DNA of 46,842 bases from Burkholderiaceae bacterium (GCA_023261135.1 JALRJP010000001.1:9603-56444), one strand, 5' to 3'. Numbered from the stretch's first letter, positions 28,811 to 36,562 are shown. Numbers and translations are program-made. The notes: generated from the letters alone by a model not told the origin.

Positions 28811-29224
28811 ATGCCGCTTCCTTCAGTCATGGCCAAACGCCTCGTGCCTGTTGTTTGGGTCACAGCCTCCTTGGTTGTGTCGGGCTGCGGACAAGTAATG
28901 GAGCGCCTCTCGGGCAAGAACGACCAAGAAGCCAGCAGACAGGCGCCTGCAACTTCTTCTCCGCAGCAGACAACGCCTGCGCCACAGACTGCGTCCAAGG
29001 CAAAAAGCTTGGTTGAGCCACCAGCCTTACCACAGGCAAGTGCCGTGGTTCAGACTCCAGCCTCACCTCAAACACCAGCCGCAACGCAAGCGCCTTCTTC
29101 AGCCCAGCCCAAGGTTCTCTCCGAACCTGTGACGCAATCCAAAGCGCAGGTGATTATTGAGCAGGCTCCAGCTTCTACCGCCGGCCCGAAGATCTACCGG
29201 TCCTCGGATGCGCGTCGGCCATAG
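28811..29224 (+). CDS. Small Pro/Ala/Gln-rich putative lipoprotein
   Basis: Hydrophobic leader with lipobox-like LVVSGC; low-complexity TPAPQT/QTPASPQTPAATQAP region. Confidence 0.5.
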   Translation: MPLPSVMAKRLVPVVWVTASLVVSGCGQVMERLSGKNDQEASRQAPATSSPQQTTPAPQTASKAKSLVEPPALPQASAVVQTPASPQTPAATQAPSSAQPKVLSEPVTQSKAQVIIEQAPASTAGPKIYRSSDARRP

Positions 29225-29481
29225 CCAAACGCAAGGTCATCAACAACTCGAATTTGCAGCCGCGATTCAATCGCGGGGTCCCGCTCAAGCAACAAATCCG
29301 AAAAGATAGCCCGAAAGGTGTCAGGACTCATGGCCTGATAAACGGCACGTGGAAGGTCGACTGCAATAGGTTGCATATTGCCTGGCCTAAGTGAGGCACG
29401 CAGCAAAAGCGTAAAGGCCAAAAGCTGCGCCTCTGGGCTCGATCCCTGCTCAAAGGCAAGGCTTTTCCATTGGGATTCCAA
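29194..29481 (-). CDS. Hypothetical 95-aa protein, TTG start, translationally coupled to the PBP gene
   Basis: ORF begins a few nt past the PBP stop; GGAAGG upstream of TTG; no recognised domain. Confidence 0.5.
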   Translation of the reverse strand: MESQWKSLAFEQGSSPEAQLLAFTLLLRASLRPGNMQPIAVDLPRAVYQAMSPDTFRAIFSDLLLERDPAIESRLQIRVVDDLAFGYGRRASEDR

Positions 29482-29483
29482 CG

Positions 29484-31568
29484 CTAGGGCCTTCCGACAA
29501 TAAGATCGTGCATAAGCTGCATTCCAAGGCGACTTGCCCCATGCCCGTTAGGCAAGGGCCTTTGACCCTGACGAGGAATGGCAATCACGCCCAGAGTCAG
29601 CACAGCAGGTAGGCCCCGCTTTGCTGCACCAAATGATTCCGACTCCAAGCTCACGCCATCACCTTGATTTGCAAGTTGCCGAGCCAGTCGGTTAAGTTCC
29701 ACTATAGCGGCGAAAGTGGTCGTACCCGCAAACTGGGGGTCTTGGCGACTCACAGTGCCTGTTTTAGCCTGCACAGGACAAGGCTCAACGCAGGACTTCT
29801 TAAAGCTGGCTGTAAAGGCATTGTGACCCGTACCTGCTCCGTCCCAACCGGGCTCTGGGCCCATCATGACGCGCGCCATTGCTGCTCGCACCTGCCGGGC
29901 GGCTTGCTGCTGGCGCGACTGCCGAAGTGTAAGGCCCTTCTCCACTCGATTACCCGAGGGAACAATTAATACGGGGTCAAGCGGTGCCATACCGCGCGAC
30001 ATGCGCTCGATCTGACCCGCTAGGCTTGCAAGCCCAAGGGCAGAAACCCGGTTATCACCCGCTCCGAGCACAGACTGAACAGCCGCCGAGGCAGCAAAGT
30101 AAGGCTCACGAATTTGTGTAATGCCTCCCGTATCTCGAATACGGTTGTAAGCAGACCAATTCAAAACGCTCGAGCCCGACCGACCAGGGGAAGCCACAGC
30201 CGGCAATGCCCAAAAAAAACCTGCATAGCCCATGACTTCGCTGCCGCCACCTGTGAGCCTTACACGGCCGCAGTCGTTACCCCCTGTGGCGCAATACTGA
30301 TTCCAGCCCAGGTCAGACGCAAGCGTCTGAGCCTGTCGAGCCATGGTGCAGTCAATGGTCTGTCCGCCTGCCTGCTTCGCACCGAGGTCACAAAGCGCAA
30401 GCCGCTCCCACCATTCGTTTCGCTTAAGACTTCGGCCGTCGAGCTGGCCCGAAGTCTTGACCTGAAAGCCAAGCTCCGTGCGTTGGGCGGCAGTGGTTGA
30501 ACTATTTTCGGAGAATGCCAAGGCGTAAAAAAGCTTCGCAATCGAGGCGGGTGGCGCGGGAAGAAGAAGGGGTGCAACCGCCTCCTCAACAAGAGGACTC
30601 AGGCCCGAAGAAGAACCGCATTCTCCAAAACAACGCAAGGCAAGAACTTGCTGACTATGTGGGTCCATGACAACCACCACAGCAGTCTGATGTTGCCCCG
30701 CACTCGGCCATGCGAGCCAAGGGCAGTCAACCGGCTCCTTCAGGCAGTCGGCATAGCGGTCGAGCTGAGTCTGAAGAACGGGGTGAAGCGTGAGTTCAAG
30801 AGACCGAGGGTTTTGATTCGCATCGCGAACGGCTTCAGAAACAACGAGTCGGGAATAGAGGAAAGTCATCAGCTCACGACTTGCGCCGCCAAAGGCAAAC
30901 TGACTACCGAGTCCCATACCCTCCTCAAGGCAATAGCCTGCAGGCCCTTTCAAATAAACAAGCTTTTGCTCGAAAGTACGCATTTGTAAACACGGTGGCT
31001 TGGCATCCCAGGCCACTCGTTCAGTCACAAGCTGAGCAAGACTCTGCTTGAGCACTGCTCTTGGTAGCGACGGATTCAAGTCGCGTAAAAAGCCAGCGCG
31101 CATGACCAGGTCTACGTCTACAAAAAACGATCGGCAGCCCTTCGCCCCGGCGGCGGACCATGCGTCATGCGCCAACGCGAGCCGCCTAGTAGTCTCTTTG
31201 CGACTCAGCTTTAACTGGCTCGATAGACGGCCAGCGAGAACCTCTTGTTGTCGCAAGGGGCAGGCCTGCGCATAGGATATGCCCTCATGCCTATCTAACC
31301 TTTGTTCCAATAAACTGCTCCAAAAGCGTGGTCTAGGCCTTGGTAGCTCCGATATCTGATTCTCTGAAGGAGTCTCATAAGAGGCTCGAAGTTGGTTAAC
31401 AATGACTGCAAGACGCTCGACTCGGTCGACTGGAACAAAGGCGTCGATCTCCGCGTAGGGCTGGCCTGCGAACCGATCGAAATAACTCACCACCAAGAAA
31501 AACAAAACAAGACAAAGCGCTGCAAGAATGCCAAGTGTGGAGCGCAGCAAGTGCTTTGAAAAAGTCAT
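29484..31568 (-). CDS. Divergent penicillin-binding transpeptidase with N-terminal TM helix
   Basis: PPASIAKLF (SxxK) and AKTGT (KTG) motifs; single N-terminal TM; coupled to SEDS gene. Confidence 0.82.
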   Translation of the reverse strand: MTFSKHLLRSTLGILAALCLVLFFLVVSYFDRFAGQPYAEIDAFVPVDRVERLAVIVNQLRASYETPSENQISELPRPRPRFWSSLLEQRLDRHEGISYAQACPLRQQEVLAGRLSSQLKLSRKETTRRLALAHDAWSAAGAKGCRSFFVDVDLVMRAGFLRDLNPSLPRAVLKQSLAQLVTERVAWDAKPPCLQMRTFEQKLVYLKGPAGYCLEEGMGLGSQFAFGGASRELMTFLYSRLVVSEAVRDANQNPRSLELTLHPVLQTQLDRYADCLKEPVDCPWLAWPSAGQHQTAVVVVMDPHSQQVLALRCFGECGSSSGLSPLVEEAVAPLLLPAPPASIAKLFYALAFSENSSTTAAQRTELGFQVKTSGQLDGRSLKRNEWWERLALCDLGAKQAGGQTIDCTMARQAQTLASDLGWNQYCATGGNDCGRVRLTGGGSEVMGYAGFFWALPAVASPGRSGSSVLNWSAYNRIRDTGGITQIREPYFAASAAVQSVLGAGDNRVSALGLASLAGQIERMSRGMAPLDPVLIVPSGNRVEKGLTLRQSRQQQAARQVRAAMARVMMGPEPGWDGAGTGHNAFTASFKKSCVEPCPVQAKTGTVSRQDPQFAGTTTFAAIVELNRLARQLANQGDGVSLESESFGAAKRGLPAVLTLGVIAIPRQGQRPLPNGHGASRLGMQLMHDLIVGRP

Positions 31569-33502
31569 GGCATCCTACCTGCAGGCAAGACCGATTGACG
31601 TTGTGCAAGACGCTCTGCCAACCCTAAGGTGCCCAGGCCAAGTGCAACAGAGGTCATGGACGACCAACCCATGCTCAAAACAGGCAGTCCGAGCCCGGTC
31701 AGTGGCATCAGCCTCCAGTTTCCTAAAAAGGTAATGGCCGTCTGCACAAGAGACGAGAAGAGCAAGAAAAAGGCAACGGCATAGGCTAAAGGAATAAGGG
31801 TGCCGCCTCTTGCGAGGCCAAGACCTGCTCTTACCATCAGAAGAAAGTAGCCAAGCACGAGCAACCCAAATAAAACAAGGGTGGAAAGCTCGCCCAAAGT
31901 ACCCGTAAGAAGGGCAGGAAAGTAATCGCTTAAGACCTGTATAGGCAGGCATGACCCCTCGTAGCTGCACCAACGCAATGCGCCTAGCCCGTAGCCTGAG
32001 GCTGGGGCCGACTCTGAGAACTTGATGAGACGGGCAAAATCACTGACTGAGGCCGTCATGGGCGAGAGCATGAGATCAATTCGTCCTTGAACCTTGTCGG
32101 TCATAAGGGCAAGGCTGGCCGCCATTAAGGCAAAGACAGTGATGGCCATAAGGAACCGAACCCCAAAGAGCAGAAAGACGAGACCGAAGACAACCGCAGC
32201 CGAAACAAGGCTTCCCCCAAGATCACTAAAAACAAGAGCGGCAAGACCAATAATGACAAGCCCCACAAAAAGCATAAGACCGAAGGCCTTTAGAAGCTGA
32301 GCAGCAACAACGGCTCTGGGATTGAGCGTGGTTGACGACAGGAAGAGACTTGTAAAGCCAGAAACCAAACCTATAAGACTGTAGGCTCTAGGAAGATAGA
32401 GTCGGGTCAAGTAAGCCTGTCGGGCGTGCAGGCTTGTAACCACTCCCGCAAAGCCGGCCATGGCAAGCTTCATTGCCTCCGAGCCTGCTGCCGGACTCAC
32501 AAGGCCATAAAGAGCAGTAGCTAGAGAAAACATAAGAACGCTTATTGCAATGACATGATCAGAGGCCCAGCGTAGGACATTGCTAATTAATCGCTCTTGC
32601 GCTATGGCAAATGCCAAGATCAAGCAGGGTGTGGTCACACCAACCAGGTAAACCCAGACCTGACGCTCAAGTGCGTAGGCAAATGGGTTGAGCAGATAGA
32701 CGGGCGACCCTTGTCCGAATCGGACCGACGCGTCAGCGACAATAAGAAGACCCAAGGTCGCAAGAGCATAAAAAACGGCATAGACCAATGAAGCGCCAAA
32801 ACCAAGGCTCCAACCGACAAAGCCTGACCCCAACAGGGCAAAGAGACCGGTTATCCAGGGCAACAAGACCAGCAATCGTTCAAGCTGCTCTGCTCGATCA
32901 AGCACAGCCCGGGGACTGTCCAAAAGCCTAGCAAGGTCCCAACGTTGCAGGGCGAACTGCCCAGAGACGGAGCTGTAGCGGACCCCTTCGGCCAATAGGA
33001 GTGCATCAAAGATTTCCTCATAGCCGGCAGCTGGGGGCTGACCCAGCCTTTCGAGTTCTGCAAGCCTAAGCTCTAGACCCGCAAGAACCCATGTTCGTGA
33101 GCCACCGGTTGCAAGTCGCGTAGCGAGTGCATCACGCAGGGCGCGGTAGCCTGCAATCCAGGCATCAAGGCCTGCTCGCGCAGCAAGGAGTTGCCTTGCA
33201 TCCACCGGCTTACTGGAGCCAGAGGGTGCATCCAAACTTAGACCGCGCCGACAATCAAGCTGCTCAAGCGGCTGCCCTCCCGCCGCCTGGCAAAGCCGTA
33301 ATGCCCCACCCGGAGACAGCCGAGAGGCGGGTAGACCCGCTGGGTTTGCTGCAACCAATGCCGCCTGTGCCATGGCCAGTTCTCTTACCTGGGAACCCAC
33401 TGGGCGCTCAAAGAGCACCCAGAGGCTGACCGCGGCCGCAAAGAACAGCGAAAACGACAAGCCAGGCCGGCTAAATGCGCCTGATTTGTTTAGACTAGAC
33501 AT
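31565..33502 (-). CDS. SEDS family (FtsW/RodA/SpoVE-like) membrane protein with extra N-terminal extracytoplasmic region
   Basis: GYGLGALRWCSYEG...LSDYFPALLTGTLGEL and FLGNWRLMPLTGLGLPVLSMGWSSM resemble SEDS signatures; many TM helices; ATGA overlap with PBP. Confidence 0.85.
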   Translation of the reverse strand: MSSLNKSGAFSRPGLSFSLFFAAAVSLWVLFERPVGSQVRELAMAQAALVAANPAGLPASRLSPGGALRLCQAAGGQPLEQLDCRRGLSLDAPSGSSKPVDARQLLAARAGLDAWIAGYRALRDALATRLATGGSRTWVLAGLELRLAELERLGQPPAAGYEEIFDALLLAEGVRYSSVSGQFALQRWDLARLLDSPRAVLDRAEQLERLLVLLPWITGLFALLGSGFVGWSLGFGASLVYAVFYALATLGLLIVADASVRFGQGSPVYLLNPFAYALERQVWVYLVGVTTPCLILAFAIAQERLISNVLRWASDHVIAISVLMFSLATALYGLVSPAAGSEAMKLAMAGFAGVVTSLHARQAYLTRLYLPRAYSLIGLVSGFTSLFLSSTTLNPRAVVAAQLLKAFGLMLFVGLVIIGLAALVFSDLGGSLVSAAVVFGLVFLLFGVRFLMAITVFALMAASLALMTDKVQGRIDLMLSPMTASVSDFARLIKFSESAPASGYGLGALRWCSYEGSCLPIQVLSDYFPALLTGTLGELSTLVLFGLLVLGYFLLMVRAGLGLARGGTLIPLAYAVAFFLLFSSLVQTAITFLGNWRLMPLTGLGLPVLSMGWSSMTSVALGLGTLGLAERLAQRQSVLPAGRMP

Positions 33503-33530
33503 AGCTATGCGTCATGGAGCAGATCTTAAG

Positions 33531-34559
33531 ATGGTGTTCTCGCGTTTATTTCGTAACCATAACAGCCAAGACCCTAACCCACCGGCAAAACGTCTCCGAG
33601 CTGACAGTTTCGCAGACGCCCTTGGGCTAGAACTTAAGGGCGTGGTATCACAGGCTGTTCTAAAAGAACTTGAGAGCCGAGAGCAAAACTATCTCAGCAG
33701 CATTCTCGATAAAAGTCATTTTCTTATAGACGCTATTGTTATTACGCCTTTAGACAAACAGGCCTCGGAGTCTCTTGAAAACTTCTTAAGGGTTCATAGC
33801 GACATTGACCCAGAGTTTCGAAACCATTTTTTCCGCTCGATTCTTGAGTCTGAATACCGTTCAGCACGAGGGTCCACGGTTATTGTTGCTGATGACTTTC
33901 TACCCAGCATCCAGCTTACCGACCAGAGCTTTGAGCAACCAACACAAGACGAGACGTTTCAAATCTCTCTGCGTGGACGTCGACTGCAATTTCAGGCGCA
34001 AGTTGCCCTAAAGGGTCCCGTTGCCAAAGAACATTCGCGCCTGTCGGCCGAGGCTCAATCGGGCGACTCTGTCAGTGGACTTCCCGGCCTCGCAATAAGT
34101 CGCCGAGCATCACTATCAGAGGCTCGAGCCAGTGGGCTTATTCTTAGTATTCACGATGCACAGGGACAACGCACCCTAGAATTACGCAGTCCCATTTTAA
34201 TCGGACGTGAACCACCTGGTGAGGTGGAGCTGGAAGGTCTCCAGTTTGTGAGCTTGCATGGTCGCTACGTCTCCCGTCGGCACCTTGTTGTTATGAATAT
34301 TCTTGAAGACACCTACTTTTTTCTGCACGATGCGGCCACCCTCTCCTGCCTCTCATCGGGCAGCCAACTGCTCAGGCCCTCTACGCTTTACTCAATGCCA
34401 AGGAACTCCGAGGCAGAGCTCATTTTTGGTATGACCGCAGAGACACGTAATCAGGCTGCAAGCGCCGACCCCGCCGACTTTCCCCGGGTCACCCTTGGTA
34501 AGGCGATGGGTCGAAGGTCCGCGCCGTCGAGTGCGACCCCCCGGCCCGGCGCGCTCTAA
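33531..34559 (+). CDS. FHA-domain protein (alternative start 33507)
   Basis: C-terminal FHA-like SPILIGRE...FVSLHGRYVSRRHLVVMNILEDTYFFLHDAA. Confidence 0.78.
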   Translation: MVFSRLFRNHNSQDPNPPAKRLRADSFADALGLELKGVVSQAVLKELESREQNYLSSILDKSHFLIDAIVITPLDKQASESLENFLRVHSDIDPEFRNHFFRSILESEYRSARGSTVIVADDFLPSIQLTDQSFEQPTQDETFQISLRGRRLQFQAQVALKGPVAKEHSRLSAEAQSGDSVSGLPGLAISRRASLSEARASGLILSIHDAQGQRTLELRSPILIGREPPGEVELEGLQFVSLHGRYVSRRHLVVMNILEDTYFFLHDAATLSCLSSGSQLLRPSTLYSMPRNSEAELIFGMTAETRNQAASADPADFPRVTLGKAMGRRSAPSSATPRPGAL

Positions 34560-34580
34560 CCATAACTCTGGTTCACTGGT

Positions 34581-35312
34581 ATGCAACTTCGATTCGCAAC
34601 CGCTTTGAATCAGGGCGCAGACGGCCACTTAGGCTTTGACGCCTTTTATGCGGCCCCAGAGGAAAAGCTTTTTGTACTTAGCGATGGGGCAAACGGCACA
34701 CCTCAGGGAGGGGCGTTTGCTCAAGCACTGGTCAGAGCACTTACCCTGGAGAAGCAGGATCCCTGGCCCGTGCTTTTTAGGCAATCCAATCCCGTTGTCC
34801 AGCACACTGATGCTCAGAAGAGCACAACCACCAAAAGACTTGGCGCCTACCTCTATCACCTTGGATTGAAGCTCGAATCCGAACTCAAAGAGTCCGCCGC
34901 CACGGTTAGCCTTGCCATGGTCGAAGACCAGAGCATTAAGCTTTTAGGTGTGGGAGATAGCTATGCGGGTGTTTTTTGTCGTGAACCCAAAACCGGCTGG
35001 CGCCCCATTCACTGGCTCGCTCGACATAAAGACAATAATGGACATCCGACCCAGCTTATCGGAGCGGCCGTACCTATTGAGCCGAACTGCTTTCAAACCA
35101 ACCTGACTGGCGATATTTGTGTGGTACTTGCCACCGATGGCGCAGGTGATTTTTTGTCCGAGTCGGACTTCACTCAGACCCTGGGGCTGCTTGGAGAAGA
35201 AGCACCGAGCCCGGAAGACCTTAACTTCCTAACTCATAGTCTTTGTGAGAGGGCCCTTCGCAATGGAAGCGATGACGATATTTCTCTATGTCTAATATGG
35301 CGCCGCATTTAA
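34581..35312 (+). CDS. PP2C-family protein phosphatase
   Basis: LFVLSDGANGT; LLGVGDSYAGVF; VVLATDGAGDFLSESD; GSDDDISLCLIW. Confidence 0.82.
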   Translation: MQLRFATALNQGADGHLGFDAFYAAPEEKLFVLSDGANGTPQGGAFAQALVRALTLEKQDPWPVLFRQSNPVVQHTDAQKSTTTKRLGAYLYHLGLKLESELKESAATVSLAMVEDQSIKLLGVGDSYAGVFCREPKTGWRPIHWLARHKDNNGHPTQLIGAAVPIEPNCFQTNLTGDICVVLATDGAGDFLSESDFTQTLGLLGEEAPSPEDLNFLTHSLCERALRNGSDDDISLCLIWRRI

Positions 35313-36562
35313 GCCATACCAAGGTTTTTGAGGAGCCCTATTTATTTAACCGCGAGGCTCAGATTCTTGCTGATCTTCACCAACGTGGTGCTCCTGTTCC
35401 TCGAATACTGGCAATGGATCATGTTGCGAAAAGCATCACTATGGACCATGACGGAACAAGCTTAGAAAATGTCATTGAAAGCCTCTCGCAGTCACCGGCT
35501 GCGCGCAAGGCATGGACACACAGGAATCTTGGTGCCCTAGTTAAAACAGTCGCTACAGTCGCTGACCATGGTGTCTTTCACCTCGATCTAGCCAGCCGTA
35601 ACTTTCTAGTCAGTCAGTCTGACAACGGTGACCCGCAGATTAAACTCATTGACTTTGGGCTAGCCCTAAGCATTCGGCTTCCGCTACAAAAACCGCTCTG
35701 GGTCATTCCCGACCCAAAGCTACACCACCCATTGCTGCTTCATGCCATGGCAGACGATTGGCAACAGTTTTTTAGAGATTCCGCACGGGCAGCGGCAATT
35801 TATCGAGAAAGGGGTCTACCGATTCCCTCTTATTTTGTTGGCACTGCCTTTGACATACCGCTTGAGGCGTATCAGTCGTATTGGCCGCAGACCGTGAATG
35901 CCGACGCCCTGAAGGACCGTTGGTGCCTGGTCTGTCATAGCTTTTCAGACTTTCTTGGTGAGCTTGTCGGACGACTCATGCTGCCCGAGATCGAGCAAAA
36001 GTTTCTTTTGAGCTACGCCCAGACACTTCGGAACTTAGAACACGATAGCCTGGCAAAGGAAAGACTCTTGAAGCTGCCCATCGCACTCGCACAAACAGGA
36101 GGCACACCAAGGCCAGGGATGTTTACAAAGCCGGAGGCAACGAGCCAAGGCAATAATAGCCACGCGACCCAGGATGCACTAGGGCCGTGGGCCTGGCTAC
36201 TACGGCCTACAGCTCTCTTGGTGCTACTGGCGAACTACGCCTACATCGACGACCAATACAAAACGCATCAAATCGTCTTAAGTGATCTCGGCTTTTATGC
36301 GTCCCTTCTTGCTCTAGTCGCGGGCGGCCTTGGAGGCCTTAGCGTTTTAAGTGCCCGGCTTTGGCCTCTTTTTGTATTTTCTCTACTGGCCATAGGCACC
36401 ACACAGGTCTGGTTCGGTTTTGAGATGGCATCACAAGGCCTCGGCCTTGGAACAAGCTTTGCCGTTGGGCTCGGGGTCTTCCTTGGACTGGGGCTTGCCA
36501 AAATGGCCACGCCCAAGCCCCAAACAAGCGCACAGGCAATACCCGCCTGGCCAAAACGTTAA
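35288..36562 (+). CDS. Protein-kinase-like protein with C-terminal transmembrane helices
   Basis: FHLDLASRNFLV catalytic loop, IKLIDFGLAL DFG motif, FNREAQIL alphaC Glu; about 4 hydrophobic segments at C-terminus. Confidence 0.8.
   Translation: MSNMAPHLSHTKVFEEPYLFNREAQILADLHQRGAPVPRILAMDHVAKSITMDHDGTSLENVIESLSQSPAARKAWTHRNLGALVKTVATVADHGVFHLDLASRNFLVSQSDNGDPQIKLIDFGLALSIRLPLQKPLWVIPDPKLHHPLLLHAMADDWQQFFRDSARAAAIYRERGLPIPSYFVGTAFDIPLEAYQSYWPQTVNADALKDRWCLVCHSFSDFLGELVGRLMLPEIEQKFLLSYAQTLRNLEHDSLAKERLLKLPIALAQTGGTPRPGMFTKPEATSQGNNSHATQDALGPWAWLLRPTALLVLLANYAYIDDQYKTHQIVLSDLGFYASLLALVAGGLGGLSVLSARLWPLFVFSLLAIGTTQVWFGFEMASQGLGLGTSFAVGLGVFLGLGLAKMATPKPQTSAQAIPAWPKR

Follow-up and report, generated by a model that had tools for sequence, protein, structure and literature searches.

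A locus at positions 28811-36562 of a 46,842-nt stretch of DNA from a Burkholderiaceae bacterium (GCA_023261135.1 JALRJP010000001.1:9603-56444; hereafter the window) was characterized. It carries seven genes and two candidate phosphorylation motifs, arranged as follows.

28811..29224, + strand: small lipoprotein (137 aa), with lipobox SGC and the motif GC[D/G]Q[I/V/L]xxR
29194..29481, - strand: 95-aa protein coupled to the PBP, with a TTG start directly behind the PBP stop
29484..31568, - strand: class B PBP, a PBP3-type transpeptidase (694 aa) with one N-terminal TM helix
31565..33502, - strand: divergent SEDS glycosyltransferase (645 aa), with PF01098 in homologues and a catalytic Asp
33531..34559, + strand: FHA protein (342 aa), with an N-terminal alpha/beta domain and an FHA domain
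34536..34547, + strand: TPRP motif at T336 in the C-terminal tail of the FHA protein, a candidate phosphothreonine site
34581..35312, + strand: PP2C-type Ser/Thr phosphatase (243 aa; NCBIfam Stp1, PF13672)
35288..36562, + strand: Bud32/Kdo-like membrane kinase (424 aa), with a linker and several C-terminal TM helices
36104..36115, + strand: TPRP motif at T273 in the juxtamembrane linker of the kinase, a candidate autophosphorylation site

The SEDS and PBP genes are joined by an ATGA overlap, the start of the kinase gene overlaps the end of the PP2C gene (35288 versus 35312), and the lipoprotein ORF is convergent with that of the 95-aa protein, the two overlapping by 31 bp. All seven genes were found where the first-pass annotation had placed them, apart from the start of the FHA gene, which was moved to 33531; this corresponds to M54 of the ORF at 33372, the position where the homologues begin. 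The divergent SEDS and FHA starts are 28 bp apart (33503-33530 in the window; 20-33 bp in relatives), so that promoters must overlap coding sequence. A promoter scan of the 28-bp gap revealed no consensus promoter and nothing above chance. The base composition and GC content of the module are those of its flanks. Family assignments had previously been made at the level of motifs, and were here tested with Pfam, NCBIfam and PDB profiles and with AlphaFold/Foldseek.

The window SEDS was matched by NCBIfam ftsW (E 3.5e-7). PF01098 matched 16 of 19 SEDS homologues (best E 1.7e-7) and missed the window protein itself, while a profile of the family recovered FtsW structures from the PDB (E 2.4e-7). 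The protein has a PF01098-type C-terminal core containing the catalytic Asp, D526 in the motif LPxQxLSDY, which is invariant and aligned with the Asp of the TDF motif of FtsW and RodA; it also carries an extra N-terminal TM helix and a predicted periplasmic domain of ~170 aa. A tree of 52 C-terminal SEDS regions was divided by a 100/100 branch, with the new proteins on one side and FtsW and RodA on the other, its long branches calling for caution on finer placements. In HHalign comparisons with small alignments, FtsW (E 5e-6) scored better than RodA (E 1e-3). Orthology with either protein is ruled out by the separate 100/100 clade and by the presence of both orthologues elsewhere in the genome. 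Homology and the conserved catalytic Asp identify the window SEDS as a divergent, putative glycan polymerase.

There was no Pfam match to the window PBP, PF00905 being found in six of 19 homologues, and since PDB sequences searched with the PBP profile yielded no match, its fold was predicted. The top 50 PDB matches of the AlphaFold model (pTM 0.72) in Foldseek were peptidoglycan transpeptidases, mostly of PBP3 type and mostly Pseudomonas PBP3, the best having an E of 7.5e-9. The motifs PPASxxK (S342, K345) and KTGT (K602-T605) are present, and SxxK, KTG and several Cys are invariant in 19 homologues. When the usual SSN position was located by visual alignment, most homologues appeared to have K-R-N in place of SxN. 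On its predicted transpeptidase fold together with SxxK and KTG, the window PBP is probably a class B transpeptidase, although activity is not assured given the replacement of the first Ser of SxN. In another genome of the window's genus, G252 (L018/L031), the PBP frame is broken near residues 331-340, reflecting either a real pseudogene or an assembly error.

As in the FtsW-FtsI and RodA-PBP2 pairs, the SEDS and PBP genes of the window are adjacent and translation-coupled, and their products keep the catalytic Asp, SxxK and KTG. Unlike those pairs, the SEDS belongs to a separate clade, with the extra periplasmic domain and a WC...C pair before the catalytic loop, and the PBP has SxN changed to KRN. 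It had been proposed from the window that the pair is additional to those of the mrd and dcw clusters, and the rest of the genome bears this out. Other contigs of the same genome (1.85 Mb, 92% complete) encode canonical FtsW and RodA, and the genome also has genes for FtsI, PBP1a and MrdA, the last of these divided between two contigs. Both canonical SEDS were present in nearly all 26 family genomes and in seven of the eight module-bearing Comamonadaceae genomes, the eighth of which appears incomplete. Since the canonical FtsW/FtsI and RodA/MrdA are kept, the third pair is probably used for wall synthesis at particular sites or under particular conditions, and not for growth in general.

The FHA protein was matched weakly by PF00498, in three of 19 homologues, while AlphaFold/Foldseek matched its fold to FHA domains including that of FhaA. 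This fold makes up the C-terminal half; the N-terminal alpha/beta domain was assigned to no family. The N-terminal domain of FhaA (DUF3662) gave no Pfam match in the 19 FHA homologues at E up to 10 and was not among the top 50 PDB structure matches of the FHA protein, a very remote link being possible. The phosphatase matched NCBIfam Stp1 (E 1e-9) and PF13672 (E 5e-5), and its metal-binding Asp residues are invariant. The kinase domain matched Bud32 (E 2.7e-10), Pkinase (2.5e-6) and Kdo (PF06293; 7e-6, above its cut-off), and the catalytic residues K12, E23, D100, N105 and D122 are invariant in 16 homologues. The protein begins just before the catalytic Lys and so has no Gly-rich loop. Hydropathy indicates several TM helices at its C-terminus, and no PASTA repeats were found in it with Pfam or NCBIfam.

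The FHA tail and the kinase linker share a T-P-x-P motif. T336, P337 and P339 of the tail are invariant in 19 homologues, as are T273, P274 and P276 of the linker in 16, in stretches that are otherwise poorly conserved. The motif was present in 100% of complete FHA tails as compared with 3% of shuffled tails, and in 100% of kinase linkers as compared with 10% of shuffled linkers. It was absent from all module SEDS and PP2C proteins. FHA domains bind phosphothreonine, and the simplest reading is therefore that the kinase would phosphorylate itself and the FHA tail, with reversal by the PP2C. The invariant T-P-x-P in the two proteins is thus likely to act as a phosphothreonine switch. The motif was also absent from the FHA proteins of a second variant of the module (see below), where the switch would differ.

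A small ORF homologous to that of the 95-aa protein lies behind the PBP gene in every locus whose contig reaches there. A lipoprotein with the GC[D/G]Q motif is encoded beside the module in most loci, its gene being convergent with the 95-aa ORF in the window's genus and divergent from the SEDS gene in a sister genus and several Comamonadaceae. These associations make both proteins conserved parts of the module and not bystanders. Searches of Pfam, NCBIfam and PHROG returned nothing of meaningful E-value for the 95-aa protein. Its homology to the N-domain of the FHA protein was considered and is unsupported (HHalign probability 2.9%). Three exported proteins with no Pfam match are encoded next to the module (L051:4601-9201, - strand) and are conserved there in five to six of the Comamonadaceae loci; these proteins are possible further components.

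The gene set is conserved as a unit in relatives, in keeping with its treatment as one locus in the first-pass annotation. The module SEDS was found in 14 of 26 family genomes, with the five genes together wherever the contig was long enough; 22 contig loci, including those of freshwater Comamonadaceae MAGs and of the isolate Limnohabitans sp. T6-20, hold the five genes together. The two halves of the module diverge in the window's genus, whereas in the other loci all genes run in one direction as SEDS-PBP-95aa-FHA-PP2C-kinase. The module recurs across clades at 25-35% identity, which argues that the gene set is not due to chance. Across the order it was present in two of 250 genomes, and 90 Limnohabitans genomes included one with the first variant and one with the second. 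An FHA profile run over 369 class genomes found the module in none besides the genome of the window, and a phylum search with the PBP profile gave weak partial matches only. In two module-less genomes of the window's genus, G017 (C2) and G215 (C41), an unrelated gene directly follows sseA and no mobile genes are visible. Absence of the module at the same sseA site indicates that it is an accessory presence/absence cassette. Literature searches, with most subscription papers outside their scope, found no published description of it.

The second variant was detected by profile search in about 11 of 401 genomes around Limnohabitans. Canonical SEDS scored at most 31 bits against the SEDS profile, as compared with 84-101 bits for the proteins in ten genomes besides G664. 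Second-variant loci encode SEDS-PBP, PP2C and kinase, and an FHA gene was identified where tested. An order search with a single second-variant SEDS sequence revealed no further clear relatives. The PBP gene is adjacent to the SEDS gene in all loci reaching it, and at L171:8121-12038 (+ strand) the two are fused in a frame of ~1300 aa, followed by FHA, PP2C and kinase genes. This natural fusion supports the proposal that SEDS and PBP are direct partners. The kinase frame of L171 also contains an FGE-sulfatase-like domain. The second variant in G664 (L107) and the first in Limnohabitans sp. T6-20 (L051) have the same neighbour genes, encoding MAGIHITDIEAAINHW... and MALKSTIYKANLSIADIDHSYYED... 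proteins, as though a single chromosomal site were occupied by either the one or the other. Upstream of the SEDS gene of G664 (L107:18-7173, + strand) are DUF6844, SH3-like, M48 peptidase, DUF4337, kinase and CHASE2-domain genes. We conclude that the locus is a conserved accessory module containing a third SEDS/class B PBP pair, which forms its own clade, has its key catalytic residues intact and is tied to a kinase, a phosphatase and an FHA protein.

In mycobacteria, fhaA/fhaB, pstP, rodA, pbpA, pknA and pknB lie together, and this phosphosignalling controls peptidoglycan synthesis. The window locus resembles the actinobacterial pstP-rodA-pbpA-pknA/B-fha locus in encoding the same five gene kinds together, and the phosphothreonine/FHA logic would be the same. 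It differs in its Bud32/Kdo-like kinase with a C-terminal TM bundle and no PASTA, in an FHA protein with no detectable FhaA N-domain, in the extra SEDS domain, the 95-aa protein and the lipoprotein, and in that the pair is additional to the growth synthases, not a replacement for them. The PASTA kinases PknB, StkP and PrkA likewise have kinase and phosphatase genes beside wall synthesis genes, whereas the window kinase is of another lineage, lacks PASTA and belongs to a Gram-negative host. Horizontal acquisition of the whole actinobacterial locus in one piece is very improbable. The shared set of five gene kinds and the sporadic distribution would fit such an event, but the kinase is of another type and has no PASTA, the FhaA N-domain was found neither by Pfam nor among the top 50 structure matches, the SEDS is nearer FtsW than RodA, the PBP is nearest PBP3-type structures, and the GC content is like that of the flanks. 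The view taken in the first-pass annotation that this is not a simple actinobacterial transfer therefore holds. Other origins were also considered: no tblastn match was obtained in plasmids, no meaningful PHROG match pointed to a phage, and PADLOC gave only the generic similarity of a kinase and a phosphatase to defence systems; all three were rejected.

In an AT-rich sister genus, the DUF4280-tssJ-K-L-M-A genes of a type VI secretion system (T6SS) immediately precede the module in each of the six loci whose contig extends to that side. Matches to TssK (3e-38), DotU (6e-24), the IcmF N-domain (9e-39) and the ImpA N-domain (5e-28) were obtained with Pfam, TssJ being assigned by position and lipoprotein character only; look-alikes of tssB, C, hcp, E, F, G and vgrG were seen further upstream by sequence inspection. 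G252 carries the module on contig 7 and an orthologous T6SS cluster of the same order on contig 3, with TssB-like and TssC-like proteins 72% and 73% identical to those of the sister genus. This cluster contains no FHA, PP2C or kinase gene resembling those of the module; about 1.4 of the 2.0 Mb of G252 were scanned. One family genome that lacks the module was left out of account, too little of it having been sampled. The T6SS cluster of the family (L232, L236/L256) includes a DUF4280 (PAAR-like) gene, and no ClpV was recognised in the stretch inspected. Linkage to T6SS genes was thus present in the sister genus and absent at the loci of the window's genus, the Comamonadaceae and the second variant; a search reaching 10 kb from the Comamonadaceae type I loci, and one of the second-variant stretches, revealed no tss genes.

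It is established that PpkA, PppA and Fha regulate T6SS (PMC12607579, PMC3953482). In Acidovorax citrulli, T6SS function needs PpkA kinase activity and Fha residue T640 (PMC12607579). Binding of Fha to the phosphothreonine of TssL has also been published (PMC3953482). In its predicted parts list the module equally resembles this threonine-phosphorylation pathway, having a membrane kinase, a PP2C and an FHA protein with a C-terminal phospho-acceptor candidate, and in the sister genus it likewise adjoins a T6SS operon. By contrast, no Pfam match to the T6SS-specific Fha C-terminal domain or to the PpkA vWA domain was found in the module FHA and kinase, and the module adds a SEDS and a PBP that are absent from the T6SS clusters described in the papers found. 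There was no T-P-x-P in the Tss proteins tested. As the likeness lies in the parts and not in domain make-up, the proteins are not classed as members of the pathway. A T6SS role for the module is plausible.

We favour, with a confidence somewhat above even, the reading that the locus is an accessory third peptidoglycan synthase (SEDS plus class B PBP) regulated on site by a phosphothreonine switch. The membrane kinase would phosphorylate the T-P-x-P threonines of its linker and of the FHA tail; the FHA domain would bind the phosphorylated motifs, so that the FHA protein clusters both at the kinase and beneath the SEDS/PBP pair on the cytoplasmic side, and would turn the pair on or place it. 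The PP2C would reset the switch, and the 95-aa protein and the lipoprotein may, from their linkage, be further subunits. We infer from these sequences that the module makes peptidoglycan under phosphothreonine control. Conservation of the unit in two arrangements and two deep variants speaks for this, but the replaced first Ser of SxN, the lack of a Gly-rich loop in the kinase, the second-variant FHA proteins without T-P-x-P and the broken PBP frame of G252 count against an active, switched synthase. The altered SxN, the many extra cysteines and the great divergence of the sequences would also suit SEDS- and PBP-like proteins that are no longer catalytic and serve in sensing or scaffolding instead, for example by detecting beta-lactams or lipid II and signalling to the kinase. 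We consider this improbable, as the SEDS Asp and the PBP SxxK and KTG are invariant across deep divergence.

Whether a synthase would act in growth or in a more specialised setting bears on two further readings. The parts list is that of the actinobacterial pstP-pkn-rodA-pbpA-fha locus and the majority of loci have no T6SS neighbours, as expected of a general phospho-regulated synthase controlling growth mode or envelope stress as in Actinobacteria, the T6SS neighbourhood being incidental. The prospects of this reading fall a little short of even: species within one genus differ in whether they carry the module at a given site, and it occurs in one of 90 Limnohabitans genomes, an accessory distribution more in keeping with an optional or niche role than with core control of growth. 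A T6SS accessory would be a special case of the third-synthase reading, the kinase, PP2C and FHA protein carrying out T6SS threonine phosphorylation and the SEDS/PBP pair building or sealing peptidoglycan around the TssJLM membrane complex or, alternatively, repairing the wall after counter-attack. The position of the module directly behind DUF4280-tssJ-K-L-M-A in six sister-genus loci, the G252 cluster without module-like FHA, PP2C and kinase genes of its own, and the established control of T6SS by PpkA, PppA and Fha all argue for it. On the other side, the linkage is found in one genus only and possibly stems from a single event, the module and the T6SS are on different contigs in the window's genus, no tss genes lie near the Comamonadaceae or second-variant loci, the FHA protein and the kinase lack the Fha C-terminal and vWA domains by Pfam, and the Tss proteins tested lack T-P-x-P; we judge it less likely than not.

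For the third synthase, we hypothesize that the best-supported candidate job is wall building or repair around the T6SS apparatus encoded upstream in the sister genus. The boldest form of this idea, a T6SS with its own phospho-gated SEDS/PBP synthase, in which the kinase/phosphatase/FHA switch that starts T6SS assembly would also recruit a dedicated wall polymerase and cross-linker to build or reseal peptidoglycan around the membrane complex or at attack sites, we judge rather unlikely.

Gram-negatives are usually thought to have one divisome and one elongasome SEDS/PBP pair, and coupling of wall synthesis to Ser/Thr phosphorylation is known from Actinobacteria and Firmicutes. A third pair together with a kinase, a phosphatase and an FHA protein suggests a separately built, Gram-negative form of this coupling, and its presence in a cultured host, Limnohabitans sp. 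T6-20, makes the function of the module testable. If the T6SS link is true, the module would address how a large envelope-spanning machine fits into the peptidoglycan layer, and how the wall reseals around it.
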